This document shows positions 12,384 to 51,521 of a stretch of DNA of 64,000 nucleotides, piece by piece. Under the pieces are notes generated by a model, which was not told the origin of the DNA, made no database searches, and saw only the letters and a program-made list of their open reading frames with translations. A program made the position numbers and the translations under genes. Source of the stretch: Verrucosispora sp. WMMD573 (GTDB taxonomy: Bacteria > Actinomycetota > Actinomycetes > Mycobacteriales > Micromonosporaceae); NCBI RefSeq assembly GCF_027497175.1, contig NZ_CP114901.1:4092001-4156000 (forward strand), read 5' to 3'. Each line of letters begins with the position of its first letter. The stretch's first letter is position 1.

Positions 12384-13724
12384 ATGCACCCCGCAACGCA
12401 CCCCACCGCCAGCGCGCCTGACGGGCGCACCTACCGTACCCCCCTGCTGCGCCGCCGGCTGTTGCGCGGCCTGCTCGCCGCGGTCGTGGCCCTGCCGCTG
12501 GTCGGCGCGGCCGCGGCCTGCGGCGACGACGCCGGGTCCGACGGCAAGACCACCATCTCGATCTTCTGGTGGGGCGGCGAGGCCCGGGCCCAGCTCACCG
12601 AGCAGGCGCTGGACCTCTACACCCAGAAGAACCCGGACGTCGTCTTTGAGAAGGTCTGGCAGGCCAACCAGGGCTACTTCGACAAGCTGGCCACCCTGAC
12701 CGCCGGCGGCAACCCGCCGGACATCTTCCAGATCGATGACAACTTCCTCACCGAGTACGCGGCCCGCAACGCGACCCTGGACCTCAAGCCGTATCAGGAA
12801 TCCGGTGACCTGGACACCTCCAAGTTCCCGCCCAGCCTCCTCCAGTACGGCGTGGTCGACGGCAAGCTCGCCGGCCTGGCCGCCGGGGAGAACACCCAGG
12901 GACTGGTCTACAACAAGACGCTTGTGACCAAGAACGGCCTGCCCGAGCCGACCACCGGGATGAGCTGGGAGGAGCACATCGACTGGGCCGAGCAGGTCAG
13001 CAAGAAGACCGGTGTGCCCGGTACCCAGGACCCCAGCGCCGACTACAAGGCGTTCTGGGTGTGGCTGCGTCAGCAGGGCAAGGACCTATACTCCGGCAGC
13101 GACCTCGGCTTCACCGTCGATGACGTGACCAAGTGGTTCGAGCTGTGGAAGGGTGCCCGAGACCGGGGAGCCACCCCGACCCCCGACGTCATCCACGAGG
13201 GCAACGCCACCGACATCACCAAGCAACTCGTGGTCACCGGCAAGTCGGCGACCTCCTGGGTCTGGGTCAACCAGATGCCGGAACTGAAGAAGAACACCTC
13301 CGACGAACTCGGTGTCATCGCCTACCCGGGTGACCCCGCCGGCCAGTGGGCCCGTGCCTCGATGTACTGGTCGGTCTTCCGGGGCAGCAAGAACGCCGAC
13401 ATCGCCGTCGATGTGATCAACTTCCTGGCGAACGACCCCGAGGCGGTCAAGCTGCTCGGCACCGACCGGGGCCTGCCCTCCAACCTGGACCTGCGCCGGG
13501 TGGTCAGCGACGACACCACCGACGAGGCGATGAAGCAGTCCATCGCGGTGGAGACCGAGCTGGCCGAGACGTTCGGTGAGGCGCCCCAGGTGCCGATCAA
13601 GGGCCACAGCAAGGTCCGGGCCGAGCTGACCAAGGCCGGCGAGAACGCGCAGTACGGTCGGGCGACGCCGGCCGAGGCTGCCGCCCAGTTCGTCGAGGCA
13701 TGCAAGGCGGCAATCGCCTCCTGA
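12384..13724 (+). CDS. ABC sugar importer, substrate-binding lipoprotein
   Basis: A 446-residue solute-binding protein of the extracellular family 1 group. The signal segment LLRGLLAAVVALPLVGAAAAC ends in a cysteine for lipid attachment, after an unusually long charged N-region. The mature protein has the family pattern ISIFWWGGEARAQLTEQALDLY and GGNPPDIFQIDD. It follows the LacI gene by 19 nt and is followed by two permease genes. As in most actinomycete sugar importers, no ATPase gene is present, so a shared MsiK-type ATPase elsewhere is assumed. Probable cargo: oligogalacturonides or similar, from context. Confidence 0.92.
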   Translation: MHPATHPTASAPDGRTYRTPLLRRRLLRGLLAAVVALPLVGAAAACGDDAGSDGKTTISIFWWGGEARAQLTEQALDLYTQKNPDVVFEKVWQANQGYFDKLATLTAGGNPPDIFQIDDNFLTEYAARNATLDLKPYQESGDLDTSKFPPSLLQYGVVDGKLAGLAAGENTQGLVYNKTLVTKNGLPEPTTGMSWEEHIDWAEQVSKKTGVPGTQDPSADYKAFWVWLRQQGKDLYSGSDLGFTVDDVTKWFELWKGARDRGATPTPDVIHEGNATDITKQLVVTGKSATSWVWVNQMPELKKNTSDELGVIAYPGDPAGQWARASMYWSVFRGSKNADIAVDVINFLANDPEAVKLLGTDRGLPSNLDLRRVVSDDTTDEAMKQSIAVETELAETFGEAPQVPIKGHSKVRAELTKAGENAQYGRATPAEAAAQFVEACKAAIAS

Positions 13725-13754
13725 CCCGCCGCACCACCCGGAGAGGAGCAGTTC

Positions 13755-14738
13755 GTGGCGTTGACCACGGCGCCCGACCCGACCCGACGCGGCACCGGAT
13801 CCGTCCGGCCCGACGCCAACCGGCGCGGGTTCGGACGGATCCGGCACGGTGAAGGTCTGGCCGGTTACGTTTTCCTGTCGCCCTGGCTCATCGGTCTGAT
13901 GGGCATCACGGCGCTACCCATGCTGTTGTCGCTGTACCTCAGCTTCACCAACTACGACATCCTCACCCCGTTGTCCGAGGTGGAGTGGGTCGGGCTGGCC
14001 AACTACGAGCGGATGTTCACGAGCGATCCTTCGTGGTGGCACTCGGTACGGGTCACGCTCAGCTTCGCCCTCATCGCCGTACCGCTGAAACTGGCCGCCG
14101 CGCTCGGGGTGGCCCTGCTGCTCAACCGGGCATGGCGCGGCGTCGGGCTGTTCCGCGGCCTGTTCTACCTGCCGTCGCTGCTCGGCGGCAGTGTGGCCCT
14201 GGCCATCGTCTGGGTCAACATGTTCAACCGGGACGGTGCGTTCAACTCGTTCCTCGCCCTCTTCGGCATTCAGGGCAAGCCCTGGGTCAACGACCCGGAC
14301 TGGGCGCTTGAGACGCTCATGGTGCTGGCCATCTGGCAGTTCGGCGCACCCATGGTGATCTTCCTGGCCGGGCTCAAGCAGGTGCCCACGGAGCTGTACG
14401 AGGCCGCCGCGGTGGACGGGGCCGGCAAGTTCCGGCAGTTCGTCAACGTGACCCTGCCGATGCTCTCCCCGGTGATCTTCTTCAACCTGGTGCTGGAGAC
14501 CATCAACGGGTTCCAGGGCTTCACCGCCGCGTTCGTGCTCAGCAACGGCACCGGCGGGCCGGTCGACTCGACCCTGATGTACACGCTCAACCTCTACATC
14601 ACCGGCTTCACCAACCTGGAGATGGGCTACGCCTCCGCGATGGCCTGGGTGTTCCTGATCGCCATCGCGATCATCACGGTGATCTTCTTCAGCACCGGCC
14701 GGTTCTGGGTGCACTACTCCGACGGGGAGGATCGCTGA
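13755..14738 (+). CDS. ABC sugar importer permease (MalF/UgpA type)
   Basis: A 327-residue inner-membrane permease with about six membrane spans. The first is GLAGYVFLSPWLIGLMGITALPM. The ATPase-contacting EAA loop is visible as ELYEAAAVDGAGKFRQFVNVTLPML, near residue 215. GTG start at 13755 with GAGAGGAG upstream. Pairs with the next gene, whose ATG overlaps its stop by one base. Confidence 0.93.
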   Translation: MALTTAPDPTRRGTGSVRPDANRRGFGRIRHGEGLAGYVFLSPWLIGLMGITALPMLLSLYLSFTNYDILTPLSEVEWVGLANYERMFTSDPSWWHSVRVTLSFALIAVPLKLAAALGVALLLNRAWRGVGLFRGLFYLPSLLGGSVALAIVWVNMFNRDGAFNSFLALFGIQGKPWVNDPDWALETLMVLAIWQFGAPMVIFLAGLKQVPTELYEAAAVDGAGKFRQFVNVTLPMLSPVIFFNLVLETINGFQGFTAAFVLSNGTGGPVDSTLMYTLNLYITGFTNLEMGYASAMAWVFLIAIAIITVIFFSTGRFWVHYSDGEDR

Positions 14739-15622
14739 TGGTGGCCGATACCGTCGCCCCGACCGTGGCGACCCGTCCACAACGCCCACGCAGCCGTTCC
14801 TGGCTCCGGTTGGTCGTGCTGCTGGTCATCGTCGCGGTCGTGCTCTACCCGCTGTTCTGGATGATCGGCACCTCCGTCAAGTCGCAGGAGGAGATCGTCA
14901 ACAACATCGGTCTGCTGCCCCGGAACTTCACCCCGGGCAACTACACCGACGGGTGGACCAACTTCGACGTCAGCTTCGCCCGCTTCTTTCTGAACAGTGC
15001 CATGGTCAGCCTGCTCACCCTGGTCGGCAACGCGGTGAGCTGCCTGCTGGCCGCGTACGCCTTCGCCCGGCTGAGGTTCCGGCTGCGCGGGCTGTGGTTC
15101 GCCGTCATGATCGGCACCCTGCTGCTGCCGGGGCACGTGCTGATCGTGCCGCAGTACATCCTCTTCCGCACCCTCGGCCTGGTAGGCGGGGAGTGGCCAT
15201 ACCTGCCACTGCTCATCCCGCAGTTCCTGGCCACGGAGGCGTTCTTCGTCTTCCTGATGGTGCAGTTCATGCGGGGCATCCCCCGCGAGCTGGACGAGGC
15301 GGCGCGGATCGACGGCGCGAACGCGTTCGGCATCTTCCGGCACGTGATCCTGCCGCTGAGCCGTCCGGCTCTGGTCACCACCGCGATCTTCTCGTTCATC
15401 TGGACCTGGAACGACTTCTTCCGGCAACTGGTGTTCCTGTCCGAGTTGAGCGACTACACCGTCCCGGTGGCGTTGACCCTGTTCATCGACTCCACCAGCC
15501 AGAGCGCCGTCGGGCCGATGTTCGCCATGGCGGTGCTGTCCCTGCTGCCGGTCTTCCTGTTCTTCGTCGCCTTCCAGCGGATGCTCGTCGAGGGGATCAA
15601 CACCAGTGGACTCAAGGGCTGA
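14738..15622 (+). CDS. ABC sugar importer permease (MalG/UgpE type)
   Basis: Second permease half of the importer, 294 residues and about six spans beginning LRLVVLLVIVAVVLYPLFWM. The EAA loop reads ELDEAARIDGANAFGIFRHVILPL. Its ATG overlaps the preceding stop (TGATG), so translation is coupled. The downstream YesL-like gene begins inside its last codons. Confidence 0.93.
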   Translation: MVADTVAPTVATRPQRPRSRSWLRLVVLLVIVAVVLYPLFWMIGTSVKSQEEIVNNIGLLPRNFTPGNYTDGWTNFDVSFARFFLNSAMVSLLTLVGNAVSCLLAAYAFARLRFRLRGLWFAVMIGTLLLPGHVLIVPQYILFRTLGLVGGEWPYLPLLIPQFLATEAFFVFLMVQFMRGIPRELDEAARIDGANAFGIFRHVILPLSRPALVTTAIFSFIWTWNDFFRQLVFLSELSDYTVPVALTLFIDSTSQSAVGPMFAMAVLSLLPVFLFFVAFQRMLVEGINTSGLKG

Positions 15623-16238
15623 CGGGCGCGCCGCGCCGGACAGGCCGGGGCGCGACTGGCGGGACACCGTCAGCGACGCCGCCGACCTCGCGCTGCTGGG
15701 CATCCTGGCCGTGCTCGCCGCGGTACCGGTGCTGACCGCCGGTGCCGCGGTCGGCACCGCCAGCGCGGCCGTGCACAGCTGGCTCACCACAGGCAGTTGG
15801 CCGCCGGCGCGTCTGACGCTGTCGCGTTTCGGCCGGGCGCTGCTGCCGGGGGTGCCTGCGGTTCTGATCGGGTTGGCCGCCGCCGGACTGCTCGTCGCGG
15901 ACCTGGCCGCGTTGGCCACCGGCCGGGTCCCGGGCGGTACGGTGGCGCTGGTGCTCACCATCGTCGTCGCGGCGGCGCTGCTCGGCTACGCCGCCGCGAT
16001 AGTGGTCGAGGTGGGGCGCGCCGGTGGCACCGGGTGGCGGTCGGCGGTCACCCGGGCCGCCCGCGCCTGCCTCGACCACCCCGCGCGCTGGGCCGCCCTC
16101 GCCGGCACCGCGCTGGTCGTGGTCCTGCTGTCGGTGCTGGTCACCCCGGTGGCGGTGCCGATCCTCGCCGGGTACGCGCTGGCCGCCGTGCACGCCGTCG
16201 CCCGCCGCCGGCCGGTCGGTCGGGTGGAGCTGTCGTGA
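15606..16238 (+). CDS. YesL-like (DUF624) integral membrane protein
   Basis: A 210-residue protein with about four to five hydrophobic spans (LALLGILAVLAAVPVLTAGAAVG; AVLIGLAAAGLLVADLAAL; VALVLTIVVAAALLGYAAAIVV; TALVVVLLSVLVTPVAVPILAGYAL). DUF624/YesL proteins recur next to oligogalacturonide and rhamnogalacturonan importers in many bacteria, and their function is unproven; a role in importer assembly is often suggested. The GTG start lies 17 nt before the end of the permease gene, so expression is coupled. Family assignment rests on spans, size and context. Confidence 0.7.
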   Translation: MDSRADGRAAPDRPGRDWRDTVSDAADLALLGILAVLAAVPVLTAGAAVGTASAAVHSWLTTGSWPPARLTLSRFGRALLPGVPAVLIGLAAAGLLVADLAALATGRVPGGTVALVLTIVVAAALLGYAAAIVVEVGRAGGTGWRSAVTRAARACLDHPARWAALAGTALVVVLLSVLVTPVAVPILAGYALAAVHAVARRRPVGRVELS

Positions 16239-17080
16239 GCGCTGTCGCCGACCCGCAGTTGCTCGTCGCGGGTACGCCGGTCGCCCGGTACGTGCTCGCA
16301 CCCGACCTGGACGTCCGGCACGGACCCCGGCCGTACCTGCATCCGATCCGGACCCTGGTCGGCACGGTGGTCACCGACGCGCTCCCCGCCGACCACGTGT
16401 GGCACCTCGGCGCGTCGCTGGCGGTGCAGGACGTCAACGGCACGAACCTGTGGGGCGGGCGGACGTACGTGCGCGACGTCGGGTACACCTGGCGCGCCGA
16501 CCACGGCCGGATCGTGCACACCGGATGGGACCGCCGCGAACCGCAGGTGCTGGACCACCACCTGCACTGGTGTGACCCGAGCGGCCGGGTCCTGCTCGCC
16601 GAGCGACGTACGCTGGCCGCCTCGGCGGTGCCCGGTCACGGGAGCGCGTGGCGGCTGGAGGTGTCCAGCACCCTGACGGCACCCGTTGACCACGACGTCA
16701 CGCTGGGCAGCCCGGCCACCAACGGCCGTCCCGGCGGGGCCGGCTACGGCGGATTCTTCTGGCGGGCGGTGGCGGCCGAGCCAGCCGAGGTGTTCACCGC
16801 TGAGCTGGACGGCGAGGAGGCGGTCAACGGGTGCACCGAGCCATGGGTGGCGATGACCGGGCGGGCACCGGACGGTGAGGCGTATTCGCTGGTCTTCAGC
16901 GGCCTCGGGCCCGGCGATCGATGGTTCGTGCGGACGGCGATGTACCCGGGGGTGTGCGTGGCCTTCGCCTTCGAGCAGACCACCACCATCCCGGCGGGCA
17001 CGAGCCGGCGCGGCCACTACCGCGTCGTCATCGCCGACGGCACGCTCGATCGGCACACCGCCGCCGTCCTCATCGACTGA
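16235..17080 (+). CDS. PmoA-like protein (DUF6807 family)
   Basis: A 281-residue soluble protein starting at GTG 16235, which overlaps the upstream stop by 4 nt. Landmarks are RPYLHPIRTLVGTVVTDALPADHVWHLG, WGGRTYVRDVGY, a HHLHW block and GGAGYGGFFWRAV. These are typical of proteins labelled methane oxygenase PmoA or DUF6807 that sit in sugar-utilisation operons. The PmoA name is misleading, since these are not methane monooxygenase subunits. The His-rich blocks could be a metal or carbohydrate site. It ends the rightward importer operon; substrate and reaction are unknown. Confidence 0.75.
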   Translation: MSAVADPQLLVAGTPVARYVLAPDLDVRHGPRPYLHPIRTLVGTVVTDALPADHVWHLGASLAVQDVNGTNLWGGRTYVRDVGYTWRADHGRIVHTGWDRREPQVLDHHLHWCDPSGRVLLAERRTLAASAVPGHGSAWRLEVSSTLTAPVDHDVTLGSPATNGRPGGAGYGGFFWRAVAAEPAEVFTAELDGEEAVNGCTEPWVAMTGRAPDGEAYSLVFSGLGPGDRWFVRTAMYPGVCVAFAFEQTTTIPAGTSRRGHYRVVIADGTLDRHTAAVLID

Positions 17081-17189
17081 CCCGCCCACCCACGGCACCG
17101 CGACCGATGGCGGTCGAAGCGCTCGCTCCGCCACTCCCGGAGCTCCCGCAACGCTATAGGATCCCGGCAGCGGAGCCACCGGCGGTCGA

Positions 17190-19817
17190 TCAACCGGCGC
17201 CCAGGCAGACGAACGCCGCCGCGGTAGCCCGGGCGGTGCCGTCGCCCCCTGCGACAAATGCCTGCTGGGTCTCGGCGAGGGCGTGCGCCGGTCGGGCACC
17301 GGCCCGCATCCGCCGGTGCAGGTCCAGCATGAGCGCGGTGGTCGAGTCGGCCGGCACCGGTAGCACCGTGGCGATCAGACACCGGGTGCCCAGGGCCAGC
17401 AGCACCGCGGCGAATCCCATCACCTCGTCGCCCGGGCGAATGCCGGTCAGCCCCGACTCGCAGGCGGAGAGGACCACGCAGCCGGGTGGCCGCGCGACAC
17501 GTTCCCACTCGTACGCGAACAGCGGTCCCCCGGCGAGCTCCAGAGTGGAGAACTGTGGATTGTCCGCGCGGAACGTGCCGTGAGCCGCGATGTGCACCAA
17601 CCCGGCACCGTCCAGTGCCCGGGTGAGCGCGTCGGCGGTGGCGTCCGCCCCGGTGATCAGTCGGGCTCCCGGCAACACCCGGGCGAGCCGGCGGACCTCG
17701 GCCCGCCCGGCCGGTAGCCGCGGGCCGCTGGCCAGGACAGGCGGTCCGACCGCCGCCTCGCGTCGATCCGCGCCGAGCCATACCGTGGCCGACGGGGCGA
17801 CCGTGACGGCCCGACCAGCACAGGTCGGCAACTCGGCCCAGCCGACGGCATGCAGCTCACCGACCGGAACGATCACCAGGGGCCGGTCGGCCAGACGGCG
17901 TCGCACCGGATCGAAGAGCTGACGGTCGAGTACCGCGGCGGCATGTGCGGCACCCGCCTGCGCGGCGGCCGAGTCCCCGGTGGTGATCAGTCGACGTAGC
18001 CCGAACCGATGCCATCGGGCCAGCCTCGCCGCCTCGGCGAGCGGGCCGAGGTCGTGCAGGCTGACCCGACCGTCGCGGACCATCACCGCCCGGAGCCGAT
18101 CGCCGTGCGCCACCAGTTCGACCAGGACGCGCGAGCCGAGCCGCTCGGCCAGGGCGTCCACGGTGGGCGGGGCGACCACCTCGCTCCCGCCGGGCATCCG
18201 CCGGGCAAGGTCGCGGATGCGGTGTTCGAGTCGGGCCTGCCGACCGCGCAGGGCACGTACCGGACGGTCGGCCAGCACCGCGTCCTCGATCAGCCCGCTG
18301 ACCATCCTCAGCTCGGCGAGCGTGGTGACCAGATCGGGGTCATCGGGTGGGAGCGCCGAGCGCATCCGCAGCGTGTTGGCGCGCCACCGTTCCGACCAGG
18401 CGAGGACCCGGGCCGGTGCGCCGGCGCGGACGGCGACGTCCAGCCCCTCGGCCGCCAGTTCCTGCCCGTACGCCCCGCTGTGGGCCCGCAGTTCCGTGGC
18501 GCCGAGCGAGGTGCGGTGCCGGTCGAGCACGGCCAGTCCGCGCCGGAGGGCACGAGCCGCGCCGGACTCGTCGCCGCTCAACCGGCGCGACAGTGCCAGG
18601 GCGTACCAACCCTGAGCCCGTCGGGGAGCGGTGCCCCGGCCCCGCGCCCGGGCGGCCCGCCCGAACAGCTCCATGGCGCGGCCGGTGCGGCCAGTGGCAG
18701 CCGCCAGCAGACCGGCGTCGATGCGGGTGATCAGCGCGGGATCCGGCCAGCCGGTGGCGTCGAGCTGGTCGGCGGTCCGGACCATCGCGGTGAACAGGGC
18801 CGGCGAACGGGTTCCCCGGCGAAACTCGGCGCGCAGCTCGACGTGCCGGGCGAACGCGGCCCAGGTCCGGCGGCCCTGGCGCCGGAACCGGGTGCGGGCG
18901 GCCGCCGCGGCTGCGGTCGCGGTGTCCAGGTCACCGGCGAGCAACGCGGCCCGGGCCTGGGCCAGCAGCGCCTCGGCGAGATCGGAGGCCATCCCACGGC
19001 GGCGTAGTTCCCGGATCGCCACGGCGGCGACCTGCACCGCCTCGTCGACCAGGGGCACCGACAGCAGCAACTCGACGCGGTCCAGCAGCAACGCCGGCCG
19101 GGGCACCGCCAGTCGCCGGTACTCCTCGCCGATGGCGGCGAAGCAGCGCAGCGCGGCCGCGATGTCACCGCGCCGGCCGGCCGCGATCCCGCCGTTCCAG
19201 CGGGCGTCGGCTGCCGCCAGGTCCAGGCCGAGTCCATGGAAGACGGTCGCCGCCCGGGAGAGGTCGTCCGCGCCATCGACGGTGCCCCGGTGGGCGTTGA
19301 GCAGGCCCCGGTTGTTCCGGGCCCGTGCCTCCAGCAGCAGGTCACCGTCGCGTTGGGCGATGTCGATGGCGTGGCCGTAGTCGCGAACCGCTTCGTCGTA
19401 GCGTCCGCGGTAGTGCAGCACCACCCCGCGCTGCATCCGGGCCCGCCCGGCGTCCGCACCGGTCAGGTGGGGCAGCGCGTCGGTTACGGCCCGCAGCGCC
19501 GCCGCGGTACGGCCGGCGTTGGCCAGTACGTAACCGAGACTCATCTGCGCCAGCGCCCGGGTCCGGGCGGTGCCGGCGGTGCGTACCGCCCGTCGCAGGT
19601 GACGTAGCGCGCCGGATAGATCGTTGAGTTCCCGCAGGGCCAGGCCGATCGCCCGGTCGGCGGTGGATCGCTCGTCGTCGTCGGCGGTGCTGGCGGCGAG
19701 CACCCGCTGGGCGATCGCGATCGCCTCACGCGGACAGCGCTGGACGGTGTCGAGCGCCGCCATGGCGGTCCCGGCACCGGCGTCGGTGCTGTCGGGCATG
19801 GACAAAGAGTTCCCCAT
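17190..19817 (-). CDS. TPR-CHAT protein (caspase-like peptidase)
   Basis: An 875-residue protein. Residues about 20-480 form helical tetratricopeptide-like repeats; a linker follows, then a C-terminal CHAT domain (about 560-875). The caspase-like catalytic dyad is intact: His746 in LVHIAAHGTF and Cys786 in VVLSACESG. The typical CHAT strand VIVPVGELHAVGWAELP and the end motif ALGTRCLIATVLPVPA are also present. No signal peptide or membrane span, so cytoplasmic. ATG 19799 (MPDSTDAG), with GGGGA upstream, is a good alternative start. It is divergently arranged, with a 177-bp gap, from a subtilase/sigma/small-protein operon. CHAT proteases in bacteria act in conflict and signalling systems; the target here is unknown. 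Confidence 0.9.
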   Translation of the reverse strand: MGNSLSMPDSTDAGAGTAMAALDTVQRCPREAIAIAQRVLAASTADDDERSTADRAIGLALRELNDLSGALRHLRRAVRTAGTARTRALAQMSLGYVLANAGRTAAALRAVTDALPHLTGADAGRARMQRGVVLHYRGRYDEAVRDYGHAIDIAQRDGDLLLEARARNNRGLLNAHRGTVDGADDLSRAATVFHGLGLDLAAADARWNGGIAAGRRGDIAAALRCFAAIGEEYRRLAVPRPALLLDRVELLLSVPLVDEAVQVAAVAIRELRRRGMASDLAEALLAQARAALLAGDLDTATAAAAAARTRFRRQGRRTWAAFARHVELRAEFRRGTRSPALFTAMVRTADQLDATGWPDPALITRIDAGLLAAATGRTGRAMELFGRAARARGRGTAPRRAQGWYALALSRRLSGDESGAARALRRGLAVLDRHRTSLGATELRAHSGAYGQELAAEGLDVAVRAGAPARVLAWSERWRANTLRMRSALPPDDPDLVTTLAELRMVSGLIEDAVLADRPVRALRGRQARLEHRIRDLARRMPGGSEVVAPPTVDALAERLGSRVLVELVAHGDRLRAVMVRDGRVSLHDLGPLAEAARLARWHRFGLRRLITTGDSAAAQAGAAHAAAVLDRQLFDPVRRRLADRPLVIVPVGELHAVGWAELPTCAGRAVTVAPSATVWLGADRREAAVGPPVLASGPRLPAGRAEVRRLARVLPGARLITGADATADALTRALDGAGLVHIAAHGTFRADNPQFSTLELAGGPLFAYEWERVARPPGCVVLSACESGLTGIRPGDEVMGFAAVLLALGTRCLIATVLPVPADSTTALMLDLHRRMRAGARPAHALAETQQAFVAGGDGTARATAAAFVCLGAG

Positions 19818-19888
19818 TCATGACGGTGCGTCAATGTCGACGGTCTCGTCTCACCGCCCTCGCCGGCGTGGGCTCGTCATTCGATCAA

Positions 19889-19917
19889 TTGACATTCGGC
19901 GATTAGTTGGAAGAATC
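19889..19917 (+). promoter_or_regulatory. Probable promoter of the subtilase-sigma operon
   Basis: TTGACA at 19889-19894 is followed after 17 nt by AGAATC (19912-19917); with a 16-nt spacer the hexamer is AAGAAT. It lies in a locally AT-rich stretch about 80 nt before the GTG at 19995. The -35 is consensus and the -10 only partial. Confidence 0.45.
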
Positions 19918-19994
19918 GGGGAGGTCCGGGGGATGTTCGCCGCGTCGACCACCGGTGGCGCGTGCCACTGCCCGGACCGTTCTTGGAGGACCTC

Positions 19995-21308
19995 GTGCTT
20001 CCTGATCACCCCATCGCGTCGCGTCCCGAACCGGGGCTGTCCCGACGGTGGCTTCTTGCGGCGTCCGCCCTGGCTACGGCCGCGGTGTCGCTCGGCGCCG
20101 GACTGCGTCCGCCGCCCGCGCGCGGCGACCTCGACGACGACAAGGCCTACCAGCTCGCGTTTGCCGAAGCACTCGACGCCGATCGCGAGGTGCGGCAGCA
20201 CACCACGTCGGGTCGGGAGATCCTCTACCGACCCCGGCAACTGCTCACCGCGGACGCGGACACCTGGCGGGTCGTCGCCTGGCTGAGAAACGGCGGCCAC
20301 GCGGTGACCATCGCCGACCGTTTCGCCGGTGTCACCCGGCTGCTGTTCGCCGGGGAGACCGACATTCCCGCAGTGGTGACGAGGCTGCGCGATCCCCGGC
20401 AGTGGCCCGGCCAGCCGGTGCCCGCGGTCCAACCGCACCACGTGCTGCTCGGTCTGGGCAACATCATGGGCAATCCGAGCGGACCGCCCAGGACGGTCGC
20501 TGCCCTACCGCCACCGGATCTGGCCCGGCTCGGCGAGGGGGCGGGGGTGACGGTCGGCATCTGCGACACCGGCATCTGGCGGCAGGCGGGCGACGTTCAC
20601 CCGGAGTGGCTCGGTGGCGCCTACCTGCCGGAGTCCGACGACGAGGATCCGCTCTACGTCCACAGCGACGTGCTCGCCCCGCAGGGCGGCCACGGCACGT
20701 TCGTCGCCGGGGTGGTCCGGCAGGCCGCGCCGGGCGTGCGCGTCGACCCGGAATCGGCGCTGGGTCCCACCGGCGTCGGTGACGAGGCGATGCTGGTGGC
20801 CGCGCTCGGTCGGCTCGCGCCGGAGGTGTCCGTGGTGAATCTCTCGCTGGGCGGTTTCACCCTCGACGACCAGCCGTCGCTGCCGCTGGCCAACGCCGTG
20901 GCCGGACTACGGTCGACGACCGCGGTGGTGGCGGCGGCCGGAAACGCCGGCATCAACCGACCTGTCTGGCCGGCCGCGCTGCACCGGGTCCTGTCGGTCG
21001 CGGCGGTCGCCGCGACCGACACCGGCCCGGTGCCGGCGACCTACAGCGGCTTCGGAGCGTGGGTTGACGCCTGCGCCCTCGGCCAGCACCACAGCACGTT
21101 CGTCGACGGCCGGCTGCCGTTGCCGGGTCGGCCGACCCGGCAGTTCCGCGGGTTCGCCACCTGGGCCGGCACCTCGTTCGCGTCGGCGTACGTCGCGGGT
21201 CGGCTCGCCGCACTGATGACCACCGCCGGCCTGACCGCCGAGGCGGCACGGCTGGCGTTGCTCGCGGCGCCGCGCTGGCATCCCGACTACGGTGTCCTCG
21301 TCGGATGA
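19995..21308 (+). CDS. Subtilisin-family (S8) serine protease with Tat-type signal
   Basis: A 437-residue protease starting at GTG 19995, chosen because GGAGGA sits 4 nt upstream; the frame also opens at GTG 19962. The N-terminus has SRRWLLAASALATAAVSLGAG, a twin-arginine plus hydrophobic segment pointing to Tat export. The catalytic triad is complete: Asp191 (GICDTGI), His233 (GGHGTFVAGV), Ser394 (AGTSFASAYVAG), with the oxyanion Asn317 in AAAGNAG. A 130-residue region precedes the catalytic domain and may be a propeptide. It is first of a tight operon with a sigma factor and a small protein, divergent from the CHAT gene. Confidence 0.92.
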   Translation: MLPDHPIASRPEPGLSRRWLLAASALATAAVSLGAGLRPPPARGDLDDDKAYQLAFAEALDADREVRQHTTSGREILYRPRQLLTADADTWRVVAWLRNGGHAVTIADRFAGVTRLLFAGETDIPAVVTRLRDPRQWPGQPVPAVQPHHVLLGLGNIMGNPSGPPRTVAALPPPDLARLGEGAGVTVGICDTGIWRQAGDVHPEWLGGAYLPESDDEDPLYVHSDVLAPQGGHGTFVAGVVRQAAPGVRVDPESALGPTGVGDEAMLVAALGRLAPEVSVVNLSLGGFTLDDQPSLPLANAVAGLRSTTAVVAAAGNAGINRPVWPAALHRVLSVAAVAATDTGPVPATYSGFGAWVDACALGQHHSTFVDGRLPLPGRPTRQFRGFATWAGTSFASAYVAGRLAALMTTAGLTAEAARLALLAAPRWHPDYGVLVG

Positions 21309-21327
21309 GTGCCCAGACGGGAATGTC

Positions 21328-21963
21328 GTGCTGACCGATCGCAGCGCCACAGACCTGGTGTCCGCCGCGACGCACGGCGACGAGGCGGCCTGGGCCGAGC
21401 TGGTGCGCCGGTACACCCCGCTGGTGTACTCGGTGATCCGGTCCCACGACCTGGGTGGCGCCGACGCGGCCGATGTCAACCAGACCGTCTGGCTGCGGCT
21501 GGTGGAGCACCTGAATCAGGTACGCGAACCCGAGGCGCTGGCCGCCTGGCTGGCCGTGACGACCCGGCGCGAGTGCTACCGGATGTCCCGCCTCGGCCGG
21601 CGTACACAGCCGATGGACCCGTCCGACGGTGCGTTCGAGGCGTACCACGGGACCTGGGCGGACGTCGCGGCGCCGGACGAGGACCTGCTGCGAGCCGAGC
21701 GGCGCCAGGCGCTGCGGGAGAGCTTCGCTCAGCTTCCGCCGCGGTGCCAGGAGCTGCTTTCGTTGCTGACCGCCGATCCGCCGCTGACCTACCGGGAGGT
21801 CGCCGGCCGGCTGGGCCTACCGGTCGGCAGCATCGGGCCGACCCAGGCCCGCTGCCTGCGCAGGCTGCGCGACTCCCCGGCCCTCGCGTCGTACCTTGAA
21901 CCGGGCGGGACGACCGGACGGAAGTGGGGTGAACGCGATGGAGCCGTGGCCGCCGGTCGATGA
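21328..21963 (+). CDS. ECF-type RNA polymerase sigma factor
   Basis: About 211 residues if translation starts at GTG 21328, 19 nt after the protease stop; GTG 21292, overlapping the protease end, is an in-frame alternative. Region 2 is seen in WAELVRRYTPLVYSVIRSHDLGGADAADVNQTVWLRLVEHL and WLAVTTRRECYRMSR. Region 4 is seen in LPPRCQELLSLL, YREVAGRLGLP and GSIGPTQARCLRRLR. The GSIGPTxARCL motif is common in actinobacterial sigma factors that lack a classical anti-sigma partner. The following small-protein gene begins inside its last 10 codons. Confidence 0.9.
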   Translation: MLTDRSATDLVSAATHGDEAAWAELVRRYTPLVYSVIRSHDLGGADAADVNQTVWLRLVEHLNQVREPEALAAWLAVTTRRECYRMSRLGRRTQPMDPSDGAFEAYHGTWADVAAPDEDLLRAERRQALRESFAQLPPRCQELLSLLTADPPLTYREVAGRLGLPVGSIGPTQARCLRRLRDSPALASYLEPGGTTGRKWGERDGAVAAGR

Positions 21964-22402
21964 CGACCGGTTGCAGGCGGAGCTGGGCGCGGCGCTCTGG
22001 GACGCCGGGGGAGTTCCCGAGGAGTACGTAACGGCGGCGCGGGCGGCGTTCGCCTGGCGGACGGTAGACGCCGAACTGACCCTGGCCGAGCTGATCTTCG
22101 ACTCGGCAAGTGAGGCGGAACCGGCCGGGCTGACCCGGTCGGCGGGCTCCGCGCGCACCCTTTCCTTCCGCGGTGGCCCGGTCGTCGTGGAGATCGAGGT
22201 GACCGACGCCGGGATCGTCGGGCAGCTCTCCCCGACCGGCGGCGGTCGGGTCAGCGCCCGCACGAGCAGCGGCATCTACGAGGAGGCCCCGGTCAACGCG
22301 GTGGGTCTCTTCTCGCTGGGTGCTCCGCCGCCCGGTCCGATCCAGCTCCGAGCCGACGCGGGCGGACACATGGTGGTCACCGACTGGGTCTGCCTACGCT
22401 GA
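21938..22402 (+). CDS. Small sigma-factor-linked protein with predicted beta-sandwich
   Basis: A 154-residue soluble protein with no recognised enzyme motif. Residues 1-50 are helical and acidic (RLQAELGAALW, EEYVTAARAAFAW), then DAELTLAELIFDSA. The remainder alternates short strands and turns (RTLSFRGGPVVVEIEV, GIVGQLSPTGGGRVSA, GPIQLRADAGGHMVVTDWVCL), the look of a carboxypeptidase-regulatory-like or transthyretin-like fold. It overlaps the sigma gene by 26 nt, so it is cotranslated and probably acts with it, perhaps as its modulator. GTG 21929 is an alternative start. The functional proposal is inference from linkage. Confidence 0.75.
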   Translation: MEPWPPVDDDRLQAELGAALWDAGGVPEEYVTAARAAFAWRTVDAELTLAELIFDSASEAEPAGLTRSAGSARTLSFRGGPVVVEIEVTDAGIVGQLSPTGGGRVSARTSSGIYEEAPVNAVGLFSLGAPPPGPIQLRADAGGHMVVTDWVCLR

Positions 22403-22447
22403 CGGGGCCGCGAGCCGTCCGGCCCGCAGCCCCGCCAGGGCGCTGGA

Positions 22448-23473
22448 CTACCGCCTGCCAGCGCTGATCAGATACTGCACGCCACCGAGGTCGGTCCGTC
22501 GCTGTCCGCTGTTGTCCGGCCCGAACTGGGTCACGTTGAACGCGATTTCCCGGTCGGACGTGGCCTCGGCCGAGAAGAGCAGCGAGAACTGCACCCGCTC
22601 ACCGGGGTTGAGCACCAGATTGCCCAGGACGGCCCTGGTGGGCTCCACGATCTCCACCTGGGTCTCTCCGACCGGGCGGACGCCGGTGCCGGCCGCGCCG
22701 CCGGCCCGCCAGCGCTCGAAGAGTTCCGGACCGAGGTCGACGACGACACGGCCGCCGATGGGCCGCAGCGGCTCGGCCGCCGCGAAGACCACATCGTTCC
22801 TGGAGGGTACGGTAAGCGTGTTGCCGATGGCGAAGGGCCGCACGACCGGGCCCGTGCCCGGGGTCAGCCGGACCGAGTCGACGTTGCGCCACGCGATGTT
22901 GTTGTTGTGCCGGGTGTTGGTGTGGATGTCCGGACCCTCGAAGGTCATCGGGTCGGAGTCGGAACTCCAGCGGGCGATGAGGCAGAAGTGACCCGGCCCG
23001 GGTACCCCCGTCCACGGGATGGTGACCGTCGTGACGCCCGGGGCGGCGACGACGTTGGCGGCCCCGATCTGGGTCCAGTGGGTCGGCCAGGTCGCACCAC
23101 CGCCGGGCGTGGTCCGGAAGACCCGGAGCACGCCGCTACCGACACCGGAGCCGTACGGCCCGGGATTGCGCAGCTTGACGAAGACGTAGTTCGTCACCCC
23201 CACGATCGGGTTCTGGCTGGTGGCGCACTCGACGGCGGTCGGGCAGACCTTGATGTCGGGGCTGATCCACAGCGGTTCGAGCATGTGCGGCTCGGCCCCG
23301 ACATCGGCGGCGACATCCTTGATGTAGACGTCGGTGCGGGCCGTCGCGGCCGCCCGCTCCGATGCCGGGAAGGGCGCGGCGGCGGCTGCGGTGACCGCCA
23401 GCAGACTGGTCAGCGCCGCTCCCGCGAGGACGACCAGGGCGGCTCTGCGGACACGTCTTCCTGCACTGCTCAT
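22448..23473 (-). CDS. Secreted protein of unknown function
   Basis: A 341-residue exported protein. It has a Sec signal (RRAALVVLAGAALTSLLAVTAAAAA) and a middle domain I recognise as recurring in secreted proteins of streptomycetes and myxobacteria, though not as a named family. That domain contains DVYIKDVAADVGAEP, LWISPDIKVCP, NYVFVKLRNPGPYGSG, PGHFCLIARWSSDSDPMTF and NNNIAWRNVDSV. Strand-rich, probably Ig-like. It converges on the small protein of the CHAT/sigma cassette with a 45-bp gap, so it could be a neighbour only. No catalytic residues stand out. Confidence 0.75.
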   Translation of the reverse strand: MSSAGRRVRRAALVVLAGAALTSLLAVTAAAAAPFPASERAAATARTDVYIKDVAADVGAEPHMLEPLWISPDIKVCPTAVECATSQNPIVGVTNYVFVKLRNPGPYGSGVGSGVLRVFRTTPGGGATWPTHWTQIGAANVVAAPGVTTVTIPWTGVPGPGHFCLIARWSSDSDPMTFEGPDIHTNTRHNNNIAWRNVDSVRLTPGTGPVVRPFAIGNTLTVPSRNDVVFAAAEPLRPIGGRVVVDLGPELFERWRAGGAAGTGVRPVGETQVEIVEPTRAVLGNLVLNPGERVQFSLLFSAEATSDREIAFNVTQFGPDNSGQRRTDLGGVQYLISAGRR

Positions 23474-23649
23474 GACAGGTCTCTCCTATCGACGGGACTG
23501 GGCCGACCGGTACGTTTCCGTACTGTGTCGGCGCGGTTACGTCATTCAGGAGTGGGAAGACGGGCTGGAAATACCGTCGCCGGGCCACTGCGCTGTCAGA
23601 TGGCGCGACGACCGGCAAAATTCCCGGGTCGGATGGCCCGCGATCTCGG

Positions 23650-24657
23650 TCAATCAGGCAGCGCCTGGCAGGAGGAGCGGACCACCAGCTCGGTGGGCAG
23701 TCGGATGTGGGTGTCGCGTTCGACGCCGGCGATCAGGTCGACCAACAGGCGCAACGCCTCCGCGCCCATCCGTTGCAACGGCTGCATTATTGTCGTCAGA
23801 GGCGGGTTGACCAGCGCCGACTCCGGGATGTTGTCGAAGCCGATCACGGACAGGTCGTCGGGGACCGACAGGCCCATGCTCCGGGCGACATCGATCGTGG
23901 AGATCGCGGAGAGGTCGTTGCCGGCGAAGACGGCGGTCGGACCGTCGGGCAACGCAAGCAGTTCGGCGGCGGTTTCGGCGGCGCTCTCGATGCGGAACCC
24001 GCCGACCCGGACCAGCCGCTCGTCCACCGTCACGCCCGCGTCGGCCATGGCCTGCCGGAAGCCCGCCTCGCGTAGCCGGGACGATTCGAGGTCGGGGCGT
24101 CCGCTGATGTGTCCGATGCGGCGGTGGCCGAGGGACAGCAGGTAGTTGGTCGCCAGGACGGCGCCGGCGAAGTTGTCGGAATCGACGGTCGGCAGCCCCG
24201 ACGGGCCGGTGTGCGGGTCGACGGCCACGACGTGGAAGCCCTGCTTGGTCTCCACCACCGTCGGCGTGACGATCACGGCCCCGTCGATGAGCGTGCCCGA
24301 CAACCGGGCCAGCGAGCGACGTTCCCAACCGACGGCCGTACCGGCGCCGTCGCCGCCGGAGTACGCCAGCAGTTGGTAGCCGGTGCCGGCGACCTCCACG
24401 CTGGCGCCCTTGAGCAGTTCGGTCGAGAACGGCTCGAACTCGGCGACCAGGATGCCCAGCACGTTGGTGCGATGGCTGCGCAGGCTCTGCGCCCCGAGGC
24501 TGGCCTCGTAGCCGAGTTGACGGATGACCTGTTGGACCCGCTCCACGGTCGCCTGTGCCACTCCGTAACGGCCGTTCACCACCTTGGAAACGGTCGCCAC
24601 GGAGACGCCGGCCGTGCGGGCTACGTCCGACATCTTGACACGCTGGGAAAACGCCAC
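23650..24657 (-). CDS. LacI-family transcriptional regulator of the GH3/importer cluster
   Basis: A 335-residue repressor. Helix-turn-helix KMSDVARTAGVSVATVSKVVNGRYGV, hinge SLRSHRTNVLGILV, and an effector-binding domain containing VIGFDNIPESALVNPPLTTI. Called from GTG 24657; ATG 24633 (MSDVARTAG) is an alternative and would match many relatives. It diverges from the sugar importer operon, with one strong palindrome in between. It probably responds to a beta-glucoside or xylo-oligosaccharide cleaved by the GH3 enzyme; that part is inference. Confidence 0.92.
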   Translation of the reverse strand: MAFSQRVKMSDVARTAGVSVATVSKVVNGRYGVAQATVERVQQVIRQLGYEASLGAQSLRSHRTNVLGILVAEFEPFSTELLKGASVEVAGTGYQLLAYSGGDGAGTAVGWERRSLARLSGTLIDGAVIVTPTVVETKQGFHVVAVDPHTGPSGLPTVDSDNFAGAVLATNYLLSLGHRRIGHISGRPDLESSRLREAGFRQAMADAGVTVDERLVRVGGFRIESAAETAAELLALPDGPTAVFAGNDLSAISTIDVARSMGLSVPDDLSVIGFDNIPESALVNPPLTTIMQPLQRMGAEALRLLVDLIAGVERDTHIRLPTELVVRSSCQALPD

Positions 24658-24700
24658 GTCGATGATGATAGAGGGCCATCGGGCTGGTTACGGAGACGAG

Positions 24701-24716
24701 TCGAAAACGTTATCGA
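24701..24716. promoter_or_regulatory. LacI-type operator of the GH3/importer cluster
   Basis: TCGAAAACGTTATCGA is a 16-bp palindrome centred on AACGTT with one mismatched pair, the classic LacI-family form. It lies in the divergent gap 44 nt before the LacI start and 78 nt before the importer ATG. A TTGACA (24723-24728) adjoins it on the importer side, but its -10 is poor (AAAACT at 24746-24751). Confidence 0.7.
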
Positions 24717-24793
24717 CACCGATTGACACTGGGTGACCCGACTGAAAAACTCGCTCAGGCCGAGCACCCGACTGACTGGTCGAGGAGACATCG

Positions 24794-26104
24794 ATGGCTA
24801 TAAAGCGCCGTGCAACCACCTTCCTAGCGCTGTCCATGACAACCGCACTACTCGTCGCCGGCTGTGGCGGTGGCGGCGAGGACGAGGCACCTGCCGAAAG
24901 CGAGCTGTACAAGAACCCGGTGACGCTGACCTGGTGGCACAACGCCTCCCAGGACGGTCCCGGAAAGACCTACTGGGAAAAGGTCGCCAAGGACTTCAAC
25001 GCCCTGCACCCCACGGTCACGATCGAGATCGAGGGCATCGAGACCAACCAACTCCAGCGCACCCGGCTCCCCGCCGCGCTGCTGAGCAACGACCCGCCGG
25101 ACATCTTCCAGGCATGGGGCGGCGGCGAGATCCGCGAGCAGGTGGAGGCCGACTACCTCAAGGACATCACCGACCAGGTCAAGGACGAGGTTGCCAACAT
25201 CGGCAGCGCGGTCGAGATCTGGCAGGTGGACGGCAAGCAGTACGGCCTGCCGTACCGGATGGGCATCGAGGGCATCTGGTACAACAAGGACCTGTTCCAG
25301 CAGGCCGGCATCACCGCTCCGCCGGCCACCTTCGACGAGCTGAACGACGCGGTCACCAAGCTCAAGGCGATCAACGTCATTCCGATCGCCGTCGGCGCCG
25401 GTGACAAGTGGCCCGCCGCGCACTGGTGGTACAACTTCGCCCTGCGTGCCTGCTCGGTGGACACCCTGCGAAAGGCCTCCCTCGAGAACGTCTTCGACGA
25501 CCAGTGCTTCGTCAAGGCCGGTCAGGACCTGAAGGCCTTCATCGACACCGAGCCGTTCCAGCCCAACTTCATCGCCACGCCGGGTCAGAACGACCCGACC
25601 AGCGCCAACGGCCTGCTGGCCAACGGCAAGGCCGCGATGGAGCTGATGGGTGACTGGAACAAGGGCACCCTGGACACCGTCACCGAGGACCAGGAGGCGC
25701 TGAACAAGTTCATCGGCTGGTTCCCGGTGCCCGCCATCACCGGTTCCGCCGGTGACCCGAAGGCGGCCCTGGGCGGCGGCGACGGTTTCGCCTGTGCCAA
25801 GAACGCGCCGGCCGAGTGCGTCGAGTTCCTCAAGTACATCGTCAGCCCCGAGGTGCAGAAGGGCTACGCCGAGACCGGCACCGGCCTGCCGGTCGCCAAG
25901 GGCGCCGAGGACGGCGTCAAGGACCCGGCCCTGAAGTCCATCCTGGAGGCCACCACCAACGCCACCTACGTGCAGCTCTGGCTGGACACGGCGTTCGGTA
26001 GCACCGTCGGTAACGCGATGAACGACGCGATCGTCGCCATCTTCGCCGGTAACGGCACCCCTGAGCAGGTTGTCGAGGCCATGAAGGCGGCCGCGCGCAA
26101 GTGA
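24794..26104 (+). CDS. ABC sugar importer, substrate-binding lipoprotein
   Basis: A 436-residue solute-binding lipoprotein. Lipobox LLVAGC at about residue 24, followed by a Gly/Glu-rich tether. Mature-domain landmarks are VTLTWWHNASQDGPGKTYWEKVAKDF, SNDPPDIFQAWGGGE and DGKQYGLPYRMGIEGIWYNKDLF. It is closest in feel to actinomycete xylobiose/cellobiose binding proteins. GAGGAG lies 6 nt before the ATG. First gene of a four-gene operon with two permeases and a GH3 glycosidase. Confidence 0.93.
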   Translation: MAIKRRATTFLALSMTTALLVAGCGGGGEDEAPAESELYKNPVTLTWWHNASQDGPGKTYWEKVAKDFNALHPTVTIEIEGIETNQLQRTRLPAALLSNDPPDIFQAWGGGEIREQVEADYLKDITDQVKDEVANIGSAVEIWQVDGKQYGLPYRMGIEGIWYNKDLFQQAGITAPPATFDELNDAVTKLKAINVIPIAVGAGDKWPAAHWWYNFALRACSVDTLRKASLENVFDDQCFVKAGQDLKAFIDTEPFQPNFIATPGQNDPTSANGLLANGKAAMELMGDWNKGTLDTVTEDQEALNKFIGWFPVPAITGSAGDPKAALGGGDGFACAKNAPAECVEFLKYIVSPEVQKGYAETGTGLPVAKGAEDGVKDPALKSILEATTNATYVQLWLDTAFGSTVGNAMNDAIVAIFAGNGTPEQVVEAMKAAARK

Positions 26105-27099
26105 CCTCGACCAACCCGACCCTGGACCTCGCCGGCGGCGCATCCGCGCCGCCGGCGGGACCTCGGCCTGCCCGGCGCTCGTCCGCTCGGGCCGCCGAGA
26201 CCCGACGCAAGTGGTACGAGATCATCGGGCTCACGACACCAGCCGTGATCGTCTACGTGATGTTCGTGCTGGTCCCGATGGGCTTCGCCTTCTACTACAG
26301 CCTGTTCCGTTGGCGTGGCGTCGGACCGCCCACCGACTATGTCGGCTTCGACAACTACGTCCTGGCCTTCCAGGACCCGATCTTCATCGACGCGCTGCGC
26401 AACAACGCGATCATCGTGTTCGGGTCACTGTTGATCCAGGGACCCATCGCGCTGGGCGTTGCCCTGCTGCTCAACCGCAACTTCCGCGGCCGTACGCTGT
26501 TCCGCCTGCTGGCGTTCGTGCCGTACGTGCTCGCCGAGGTCACCGTCGGCATCATGTGGAAGCTGCTGCTGTCCGACGCCGGCACGGTGAACGCGACGCT
26601 GGAGTCGCTGGGGCTGGGCAGCCTCGTGCAGGCGTGGCTCGCCGATCTCGATATCGTTATCTGGACGATGCTGGCCGTCCTGACCTGGAAGTACGTCGGT
26701 TTCGCCATCATCCTTCTGCTGGCCGGTCTGTCGAATGTGCCGCAGGAGCTGAACGAGGCCGCCGCCATCGACGGCGCGAGCTGGTGGCAGATCCAGCGGC
26801 ACGTGACGCTGCCGCTGTTGGGGCCCACGATCCGGATCTGGATGTTCCTTTCCATGATCGGCTCGTTGCAGGTCTTCGACGTGATCTGGGTGACCTCCGT
26901 GCCCGCGGTGCGGTCGCTGGGCGCGTCGGCCACCATGGCGACGTACATGGTGGACAACGGGTTCTTCGCCCGCCTGTGGGGCTACGGCAACGCGGTGGCG
27001 GTCATCCTGTTCGCCATCTCGTTCGTCGCGGCGGTGCTGTTCCAGCGTTTCCTCCTGCGTCGTGACATCGAGGGCGCCATCACCAGAAGGGCAAACTGA
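26101..27099 (+). CDS. ABC sugar importer permease (MalF/UgpA type)
   Basis: A 332-residue permease with about six spans, the first being TTPAVIVYVMFVLVPMGFAFYY. EAA loop: ELNEAAAIDGASWWQIQRHVTLPLLGP. The GTG start overlaps the binding-protein stop by 4 nt (GTGA). The first 35 residues are polar and Arg/Ala/Pro-rich. Confidence 0.93.
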   Translation: MTSTNPTLDLAGGASAPPAGPRPARRSSARAAETRRKWYEIIGLTTPAVIVYVMFVLVPMGFAFYYSLFRWRGVGPPTDYVGFDNYVLAFQDPIFIDALRNNAIIVFGSLLIQGPIALGVALLLNRNFRGRTLFRLLAFVPYVLAEVTVGIMWKLLLSDAGTVNATLESLGLGSLVQAWLADLDIVIWTMLAVLTWKYVGFAIILLLAGLSNVPQELNEAAAIDGASWWQIQRHVTLPLLGPTIRIWMFLSMIGSLQVFDVIWVTSVPAVRSLGASATMATYMVDNGFFARLWGYGNAVAVILFAISFVAAVLFQRFLLRRDIEGAITRRAN

Positions 27100-27101
27100 T
27101 C

Positions 27102-27962
27102 GTGGCCGCGAACGCCGTTCTATCGCCAACCGCCAAGCGCCGTCCGGTGTCGTGGGGCAACCCGCTCACCTACGCGCTGGCGCTCGCGGTCGCCGCCGTG
27201 TCGATCACTCCGGTGGTGTACGTGATCATCGGCGGCTTCCGCACCACGCCGCAGATCGTGGCGGATCCGGCCGGACTGCCCGACCCGTGGGTCTGGGACA
27301 ACTACTCCCGGGTGCTGACCCAGAGCGACTTCTGGCGGCAGGTCTTCAACAGCGCCGTGGTGTCCCTGGGCACCACGATCGGCGTCGTCGTGCTGGGGGT
27401 CTGTGCCGCGTTCGTACTGGCCCGCTACACCTTCCGCGGCCGTGAGGTGCTCTACACCTTCTTCACCCTCGGTCTGCTGTTCCCGGCCGGAGCGGCGATC
27501 CTGCCGCTCTACCTCATGCTGCGTGACCTCAACCTGATCAACTCGTACTACGCGGTGATCCTGCCGCAGGTGGCCTTCGCGCTGCCGCTGACGATCGTGA
27601 TCCTGCGACCGTTCCTCACCGCCATTCCCCGCGAGCTGGAGGACGCGGCGGCCATCGACGGCACCGGTCGGCTCGGCTTCCTCTGGCGCATCCTGCTGCC
27701 CCTGTCGCGGCCCGCGCTGGTCACCGTCGGTATTCTCGCATTCGTCACCAGCTGGAACGCGTTCCTGCTGCCGCTGCTCGTGCTCGGTGACGCGAGCCTG
27801 CACACCCTGCCGCTGGGCGTGCAGAACTTCTCCAGCCAGTACACCTCCGACACGGCTGGCATCCTCGCCTTCACCTCGCTGGCGATGTTGCCGGCGCTCA
27901 TTTTCTTCACGTTCGCCGAGAAGCAGATCGTCGGTGGCCTCCAGGGCGCGGTCAAGGGCTGA
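27102..27962 (+). CDS. ABC sugar importer permease (MalG/UgpE type)
   Basis: A 286-residue permease partner starting at GTG 27102, two bases after the previous stop. Six spans; EAA loop ELEDAAAIDGTGRLGFLWRILLPL. As with the first importer, no ATPase gene accompanies it. Confidence 0.93.
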   Translation: MAANAVLSPTAKRRPVSWGNPLTYALALAVAAVSITPVVYVIIGGFRTTPQIVADPAGLPDPWVWDNYSRVLTQSDFWRQVFNSAVVSLGTTIGVVVLGVCAAFVLARYTFRGREVLYTFFTLGLLFPAGAAILPLYLMLRDLNLINSYYAVILPQVAFALPLTIVILRPFLTAIPRELEDAAAIDGTGRLGFLWRILLPLSRPALVTVGILAFVTSWNAFLLPLLVLGDASLHTLPLGVQNFSSQYTSDTAGILAFTSLAMLPALIFFTFAEKQIVGGLQGAVKG

Positions 27963-27997
27963 GCGGCAGCGGCACGAACACAAAGGGGTAACACAGC

Positions 27998-37813: not shown

Positions 37814-38148
37814 CGGTCGGCCCCCACGAAACGCTGCCGGGGATCGCGTACCCGGTAGGTGAACTGGCCCGGTGGACTGCCGTTGGTGAAACCGGACAGG
37901 TGCGACAGCACGATCCGCCGGCCGTCCACGCGAACCCAGTCGCCGTAGCCGGCCCGCACCGCCTCGGTGCTGGTGCACGGCTTGACCGTGGCACCGTAGT
38001 TCGGGCAGGCGACGATCTCCCGGCCCTTCGGGTCGTCGGCCACCAGCACCGGTGCGCCGGCCACCGTGACCCACTCCTGGGACGCCCGGTTGCGGACCCG
38101 GCCGTCGTGGCTGCACCTGATCACCGAGTCGCGGTGGATCCAGCGCAT
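37810..38148 (-). CDS. Probable spike-tip (PAAR-position) protein
   Basis: A 112-residue protein from ATG 38148 (MRWIHRDSVIRCSHDGRVRN). It lies exactly between the VgrG-like spike gene and gp25, the place PAAR-like tip proteins hold in related clusters. It has strand-rich sequence and three cysteines (IRCSHDG, IVACPNYG, KPCTSTEAV) that with histidines could bind a metal, as in PAAR tips. I do not see a canonical PAAR repeat, so the call is from position and general character. Confidence 0.55.
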   Translation of the reverse strand: MRWIHRDSVIRCSHDGRVRNRASQEWVTVAGAPVLVADDPKGREIVACPNYGATVKPCTSTEAVRAGYGDWVRVDGRRIVLSHLSGFTNGSPPGQFTYRVRDPRQRFVGADR

Positions 38149-51047: not shown

Positions 51048-51521
51048 GTGGACCACCAGCGCACCGCCGCGCACGAGATGTTCGACGCCGACGTGGCCTC
51101 GAACCGGCTCGGCATCGAGCTGATCAGCGCCGCCGACGGCAGCGCGGTGGCCCGGATGCTGATCACCGACGGCATGGTCAACGGACACCGGATAGCGCAC
51201 GGCGGTTTCGTGTTCCTCCTGGCCGACACCGCGTTCGCGCTGGCCTGCAACAGCCACGGTCCGGCCACCGTCGCCGCCGGTGCCGACATCACCTTCGTCC
51301 GCCCGGCCCGGCAGGGGGACGTGCTGGTCGCCCGGGCCAGCGAACGCACCCGGTACGGCCGCAGCGGCATCTACGACGTCACCGTCAGCCGCGAGGGCGG
51401 GGAGGTGGTCGCGGAGTTCCGTGGCCAGAGCCGGACCCTGCGGGCGGTAGCCTCCGCCGACGGCGGCGGACCGGAACCGGGGAAGCACGACCGGGCGCCA
51501 ACAGCCGGCCAGGGACGCTGA
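51048..51521 (+). CDS. PaaI-type hotdog thioesterase
   Basis: A 157-residue hotdog-fold protein from GTG 51048. Core: IELISAADGSAVARMLITDGMVNGHRIAHGGFVFLLADTAFALACNSHG, with the HGG active-site turn typical of phenylacetyl-CoA thioesterase PaaI, and a Gly/Ala-rich short C-terminal tail. No other phenylacetate genes are nearby, so it may be a general acyl-CoA thioesterase. Its last 137 bases lie antisense to the extended frame of the cyclase gene. Confidence 0.82.
   Translation: MDHQRTAAHEMFDADVASNRLGIELISAADGSAVARMLITDGMVNGHRIAHGGFVFLLADTAFALACNSHGPATVAAGADITFVRPARQGDVLVARASERTRYGRSGIYDVTVSREGGEVVAEFRGQSRTLRAVASADGGGPEPGKHDRAPTAGQGR

Follow-up and report, generated by a model that had tools for sequence, protein, structure and literature searches.

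The window analyzed here is a 64,000-nucleotide stretch of Verrucosispora sp. WMMD573 (contig NZ_CP114901.1, positions 4,092,001 to 4,156,000 of the forward strand), and the locus under study is a group of four genes in this stretch of the 6.5 Mb chromosome. They encode a TPR-CHAT protease, an S8 subtilase, an extracytoplasmic function (ECF) type sigma factor, and a small protein whose closest relatives are found in Micromonospora. The CHAT gene runs leftwards from 19817 on the minus strand, and the genes for the S8 protease, the sigma factor and the small protein lie on the plus strand and end at 22402. The features of the locus are as follows, in window coordinates:

17190..19817, minus strand: TPR-CHAT protease of 875 amino acids (Pfam CHAT, 118 bits, plus TPR matches)
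17580-17582 and 17460-17462, minus strand: codons of the CHAT dyad residues His746 and Cys786, respectively, both present
19889..19916, plus strand: predicted housekeeping-type promoter-like site, TTGACA-16-AAGAAT, facing the S8, sigma and small protein genes
19962-21308, plus strand: open reading frame of the S8 subtilase, with a GTG start at 19995 (Peptidase_S8, 62 bits); the triad Asp202/His244/Ser405 is present (residues counted from 19962)
near 20037-20084, plus strand: Tat-like (twin-arginine translocation) segment of the S8 protein, LSRRWLLAASALATAA, which includes LSRRWLL
21292..21963, plus strand: open reading frame of the ECF-type sigma factor, in which sigma-70 regions 2 and 4 are detected
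21938..22402 (open reading frame opens at 21896), plus strand: small protein of 154 amino acids, with a predicted helical hairpin, a linker and an immunoglobulin-like (Ig-like) beta-sandwich
22136..22138, plus strand: codon of Arg67 of the small protein, a candidate cleavage site

Organization of the locus

An initial annotation, made from the DNA letters alone, had described a CHAT protein with TPR repeats and a His746/Cys786 dyad, an S8 protease with a complete Asp/His/Ser triad, and an ECF-type sigma gene overlapped by that of a small protein; the domain matches and residues listed above bear out all three. The S8 start at GTG 19995 is preceded by GGAGG, and aligned orthologs agree with it. 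The likely start of the sigma gene is a GTG at about 21328, which fits the N-termini of its orthologs as judged by eye. The small protein starts at the internal ATG 21938, where its closest public homologs (154 amino acids) begin, and with this start its gene overlaps the sigma gene by 26 nt. The promoter-like site is the only one of its kind between 19700 and 22600 (shuffled sequence gives a mean of 0.0, standard deviation 0.2); in an alignment of orthologous loci its −35 box and most of its −10 box are kept in L018-L024 and are absent from L025.

Conservation and co-inheritance of the four genes

The four genes are a real and widely inherited actinomycete module. Among relatives they are arranged as here, with a leftward CHAT gene followed by rightward S8, sigma and small protein genes, or as rearranged versions of the same set. 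A profile of the small protein matches 86 of the 296 genomes of the class, in 42 of 105 genera. At 76 small protein loci (the window included) the sigma gene lies upstream on the same strand, or is fused to the small protein, in 72, a CHAT gene is present in 61, an S8 gene in 51, and all four genes in 48; some of the stretches fetched for this count stop at contig ends. A scan of named genomes with a pattern that selects for the WRTxD motif of the small protein, and not for its neighbors, matched 175 stretches, of which 104 encode a relative and 80 were kept. Within the fetched stretches of these 80 loci, which are not independent in that some genera and a few genomes are represented repeatedly, there are 79 sigma, 76 CHAT and 76 S8 genes; all four genes are found in 75, and the sigma gene is on the opposite strand in seven. 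The initial annotation had made its idea of a module depend on conserved co-occurrence across actinomycetes, and this is what the named loci display. The genera that have the module include Micromonospora, Geodermatophilus, Blastococcus, Cellulomonas, Kribbella, Saccharothrix, Lentzea, Nocardioides and Microbispora; it is also found in Solirubrobacter and in two metagenome-assembled genomes of Acidimicrobiia. The sigma and small protein genes are adjacent in 143 pairs (median 11 nt). Blastococcus mobilis carries two neighboring modules on one contig (L094 and L095). Eight loci (L070-L074, L078, L080 and L081) have the sigma factor, with a diverged region 4, the small protein and CHAT, and no S8 gene within the fetched stretch.

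Among 25 genomes of the same genus (that of the window included) the distribution is all or none, with all four genes in 13 and none in 12. Two of the positives need qualification: the small protein of G004 was found only by a wider profile (L174), a search that left out the 12 negative genomes, and G010 has its S8 gene on another contig. In the 12 negatives the ECF matches are generic and reach at most 57 bits; three of these genomes also match CHAT or S8, at 31-35 bits. CHAT was also sought in 12 genomes, ten that have a sigma and small protein locus without an adjacent CHAT gene and two of the same genus with loci that were not fetched; loci L026 and L079, which have only sigma and small protein genes and are placed on short contigs or where a contig begins, were outside this search. 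All 12 genomes have a full-length-type CHAT ortholog (at least 513 bits; one is split across two contigs), and an S8 gene adjoins the CHAT gene at all 11 places that were fetched, in one case only as a fragment, where the contig ends. CHAT and S8 thus persist elsewhere in the genome when they are unlinked, and the module divides into two halves, the sigma factor with the small protein and CHAT with S8, that stay together in one genome.

The two proteases, the sigma factor and the small protein

Both proteases have retained their catalytic residues. The CHAT histidine and cysteine are kept in 58 of 61 relatives, the frames of the remaining three being truncated where the stretch ends, and the Asp, His, Asn and Ser of the S8 protein in 51 of 51. 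Against the PDB the CHAT profile has 85 matches; among the 60 of these that are listed, only TPR-CHAT/Csx29 entries cover the catalytic part. At residue 763 the window CHAT protein has Gly, a position that is Asp in 56 of 58 relatives.

The initial annotation placed one protease inside the cell and the other outside. This probably holds for the window, whose S8 protein has the Tat-like LSRRWLL, and does not extend to the module in general. A crude filter for a twin arginine plus a hydrophobic segment, applied to 127 S8 proteins, flagged 29, which were then sorted by eye. Six of these (L045, L066, L124, L146, L161 and L169) were dropped, the flagged segment being a prodomain or spurious, which leaves a Tat-like signal in 23 (the window and 22 further loci) and none in the other 104. 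All 23 are from genomes of the same genus or from named Micromonospora, Verrucosispora and Plantactinospora loci; the S8 protein of one named Micromonospora locus, L122, was not flagged by this filter. Since 104 of the 127 proteins have no such signal, the inside/outside arrangement is not the general design of the module and, judged by these signal sequences, is a local addition of the Micromonospora lineage.

The window sigma factor is 50% identical to that of a Geodermatophilus amargosae locus (L100). In the linker between its regions 2 and 4 no residue is conserved above 83% among 150 sigma factors, which is weak evidence, from alignment, against a conserved cut at that place.

The small protein gave an AlphaFold model with a mean pLDDT (predicted local distance difference test) of 84.4 and a pTM (predicted template modeling score) of 0.65. 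It has helices at residues 9-22 and 28-42, a strand at 47-55, a low-confidence block at 61-70 (mean pLDDT 54) and then a beta-sandwich that is generic Ig-like; the model contains no membrane segment. The initial annotation could name no family for this protein, but there is a faint one: it matches CarboxypepD_reg (PF13620) at 14.5 bits, below the cut-off of 32.3, and some UniRef relatives are named "carboxypeptidase regulatory-like" or carry a precomputed CarboxypepD_reg domain. The likeness lies in the C-terminal sandwich, whereas the N-terminal half is outside the domain. Of the PDB sequences a Bsp chain matches it best (E value 1e-4); among the matches listed for its profile against PDB chains there are Bsp chains only and no Csx30 chain.

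Eleven proteins are natural fusions of the small protein to a sigma factor. In the fused sigmas (L027 and P0122-P0131) the region 4 motif is lost, and from sequence these fusions are possibly a scaffold instead of a working sigma. What bears on a possible binding of the sigma factor by the small protein is the fusions, in which sigma region 4 is altered, and a closed predicted model made with no sigma-alone control. Both models place Arg67 in a linker of low confidence, and it is invariant in 75 of 75 homologs, in 82 of 82 homologs and in 11 of 11 fusions, one of which also counts among the 75. The residue before it is V, L, T or I in 72 of the 75, and the one after it is S, G or A in 67. Apart from Arg67, a single glycine is fully invariant in this wider set of 75; the narrower named set has several such residues. 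An invariant arginine in a linker predicted to be loose would look like a processing site. Weighing against that, a binding site could give the same pattern.

The small protein looks like the anti-sigma factor of the module, a reading that is new here: it occurs as fusions to sigma factors, its gene overlaps that of the sigma or directly borders it, and one arginine is invariant in a linker that is loose in the AlphaFold prediction. The suggestion in the initial annotation that it is a substrate or regulator fits well with the natural fusions and the invariant linker arginine.

Possible control of the sigma factor

The association of these genes is not new: the gene set has already been published as group ECF54 (Huang 2015; Casas-Pastor 2021, as cited in the 2022 review PMC8999054). 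In its passage on this group the review says that proteolytic control is proposed because carboxypeptidase, subtilase and CHAT proteins are conserved there, and it gives as representative the G. amargosae sigma factor SFT86700.1; in the part that treats proteolysis-regulated ECF sigmas, AntA (ECF282) is the only one named as experimentally shown. Locus L100 of G. amargosae has all four genes of the module, its link to the ECF54 representative being at the species level, and its small protein is 42% identical to that of the window. The published "carboxypeptidase" is probably the small protein, given the CarboxypepD_reg likeness, and if so the four genes at 75 of the 80 named loci have the ECF54 context. 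The window module is very probably a member of this group: in both, an ECF sigma of actinobacteria stands in a conserved context of CHAT, subtilase and "carboxypeptidase" proteins. The published proposal has no anti-sigma factor, whereas here the "carboxypeptidase" is read as a small protein that acts as a candidate anti-sigma.

We suggest that the locus is a module of ECF54 type whose soluble anti-sigma factor is inactivated by a caspase-like protease, and we rate this as close to an even chance, slightly on the lower side. The small protein would grip the sigma factor through its N-terminal helical hairpin. A signal, perhaps read by the TPR repeats of CHAT, would lead CHAT to cleave the small protein after Arg67 and to separate the hairpin from the beta-sandwich; this would disable the brake and release the sigma to its promoters. 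The subtilase would be functionally paired with CHAT, and in most lineages, where it has no export signal, it may activate CHAT or remove fragments. That of the Micromonospora lineage appears to have gained its Tat-like signal and probably works outside the cell. The candidate anti-sigma, the prediction of cleavage at a single residue and the natural fusions make ECF54 control directly testable. Among the titles and abstract openings of the open-licence PMC papers listed, no proposal of the small protein as an anti-sigma or CHAT substrate was found; PMC8195603 and PMC7159879, as far as their listed text goes, concern other caspase/ECF or subtilisin systems.

Two kinds of known system invite comparison. 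As in RpoE-RseA and SigW-RsiW, the sigma and regulator genes are adjacent, often overlapping, and release by proteolysis is proposed; the regulator here differs in being a predicted two-helix hairpin with an Ig-like sandwich and no membrane segment in its model, and a caspase-like protease would take the place of DegS/site-2 type proteases. In CRISPR type III-E, Csx30 inhibits CASP-sigma and is cut by Csx29, as described in the portion consulted of PMC10028731. This CASP/Craspase system likewise combines a TPR-CHAT protease with a His/Cys dyad, an ECF-like sigma and a small protein that partners the sigma, but the four-gene set has no Cas7-11 and adds a subtilase, and the Csx30 cut site differs between orthologs (PMC11106740, in the portion consulted) where Arg67 is invariant. 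No Cas7-11 gene is among the annotated neighbors; the annotation is not complete, and no search aimed at this gene or at a CRISPR array was made. It is possible, with somewhat less assurance than for the module mechanism itself, that the module is a CRISPR-independent chromosomal counterpart of CASP, in which, across much of the Actinomycetota, TPR-CHAT paired with a subtilase would activate an ECF sigma by cutting an unrecognized anti-sigma family at one universal arginine of a disordered linker. If true, CRISPR type III-E would have borrowed an older protease-sigma circuit, and its CHAT proteases would be tied to an ordinary actinomycete signaling circuit.

Other explanations divide the same evidence differently. 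The small protein might be an uncut co-activator, sensor or scaffold, with the proteases downstream as regulon products or effectors and Arg67 as a binding residue. Its sandwich could bind a ligand or surface, the fused sigmas have no normal region 4, so that the fusion may be a scaffold, and the window subtilase looks exported; yet CHAT and the small protein co-occur even when unlinked (12 of 12 genomes searched), Arg67 lies in the low-confidence linker of both models, and both proteases keep their catalytic residues, and we judge this explanation unlikely. Improbable, to a greater degree, is the published ECF54 idea itself, put forward as a proposal in the ECF54 passage of PMC8999054, that with no anti-sigma factor the proteases hold the system off by degrading the sigma. 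It agrees with the two active-looking proteases and with the lack of a membrane anti-sigma gene in the module, but it leaves no role for the small protein, which is the most constant sigma partner (72 of 76 loci) and also a fusion partner, and the sigma linker has no strongly conserved site.

CHAT and S8 proteases are found in known defence systems, and the initial annotation had also considered a conflict system. In such a reading the module would be a mobile anti-phage or conflict system whose sigma turns on defence genes. The PADLOC models gave no strong match for the module proteins; there are two weak ones (BovA, 23 bits; subtilase, 20 bits) and none for the sigma, small protein or fusion. 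Within the genus the module has a patchy distribution (13 of 25 genomes), but its sole match in a plasmid collection is to an 11.85 Mb record, and at least one gene of a housekeeping block (nucleotide pyrophosphatase, DUF5998, acyl-CoA synthetase-like, thymidine kinase, ferrochelatase, rhodanese) is a neighbor at 28 of 156 loci, and at least two at 25. This neighborhood, which the window module does not have, spans several families (L037, L054, L062, L065, L082, L098 and others) and suggests that in those lineages the module has long had its place on the chromosome and that its role is regulatory, not that of a mobile system. A conflict system is accordingly very unlikely. A chance neighborhood of unrelated genes, in favor of which nothing was found, is excluded for practical purposes because the set is conserved across genera, and the 6.5 Mb genome has only five CHAT genes.

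Several other features of the window lie outside the module. Convergent with the small protein gene is one for a secreted-looking protein of 341 amino acids with no family assigned (22448-23473, minus strand), which flanks the small protein in five of seven close relatives and has two more matches in L020. Carbohydrate genes surround the module (12384-30334) and include solute-binding proteins, a permease, a LacI regulator, DUF6807 and glycoside hydrolase family 3. Farther on, Phage_base_V and Phage_GPD domains (38148-39743, minus strand) suggest a nearby contractile-injection or phage-tail-like cluster, and an open reading frame of 1020 amino acids (51385-54447, minus strand) combines nucleotide cyclase and AAA ATPase domains.

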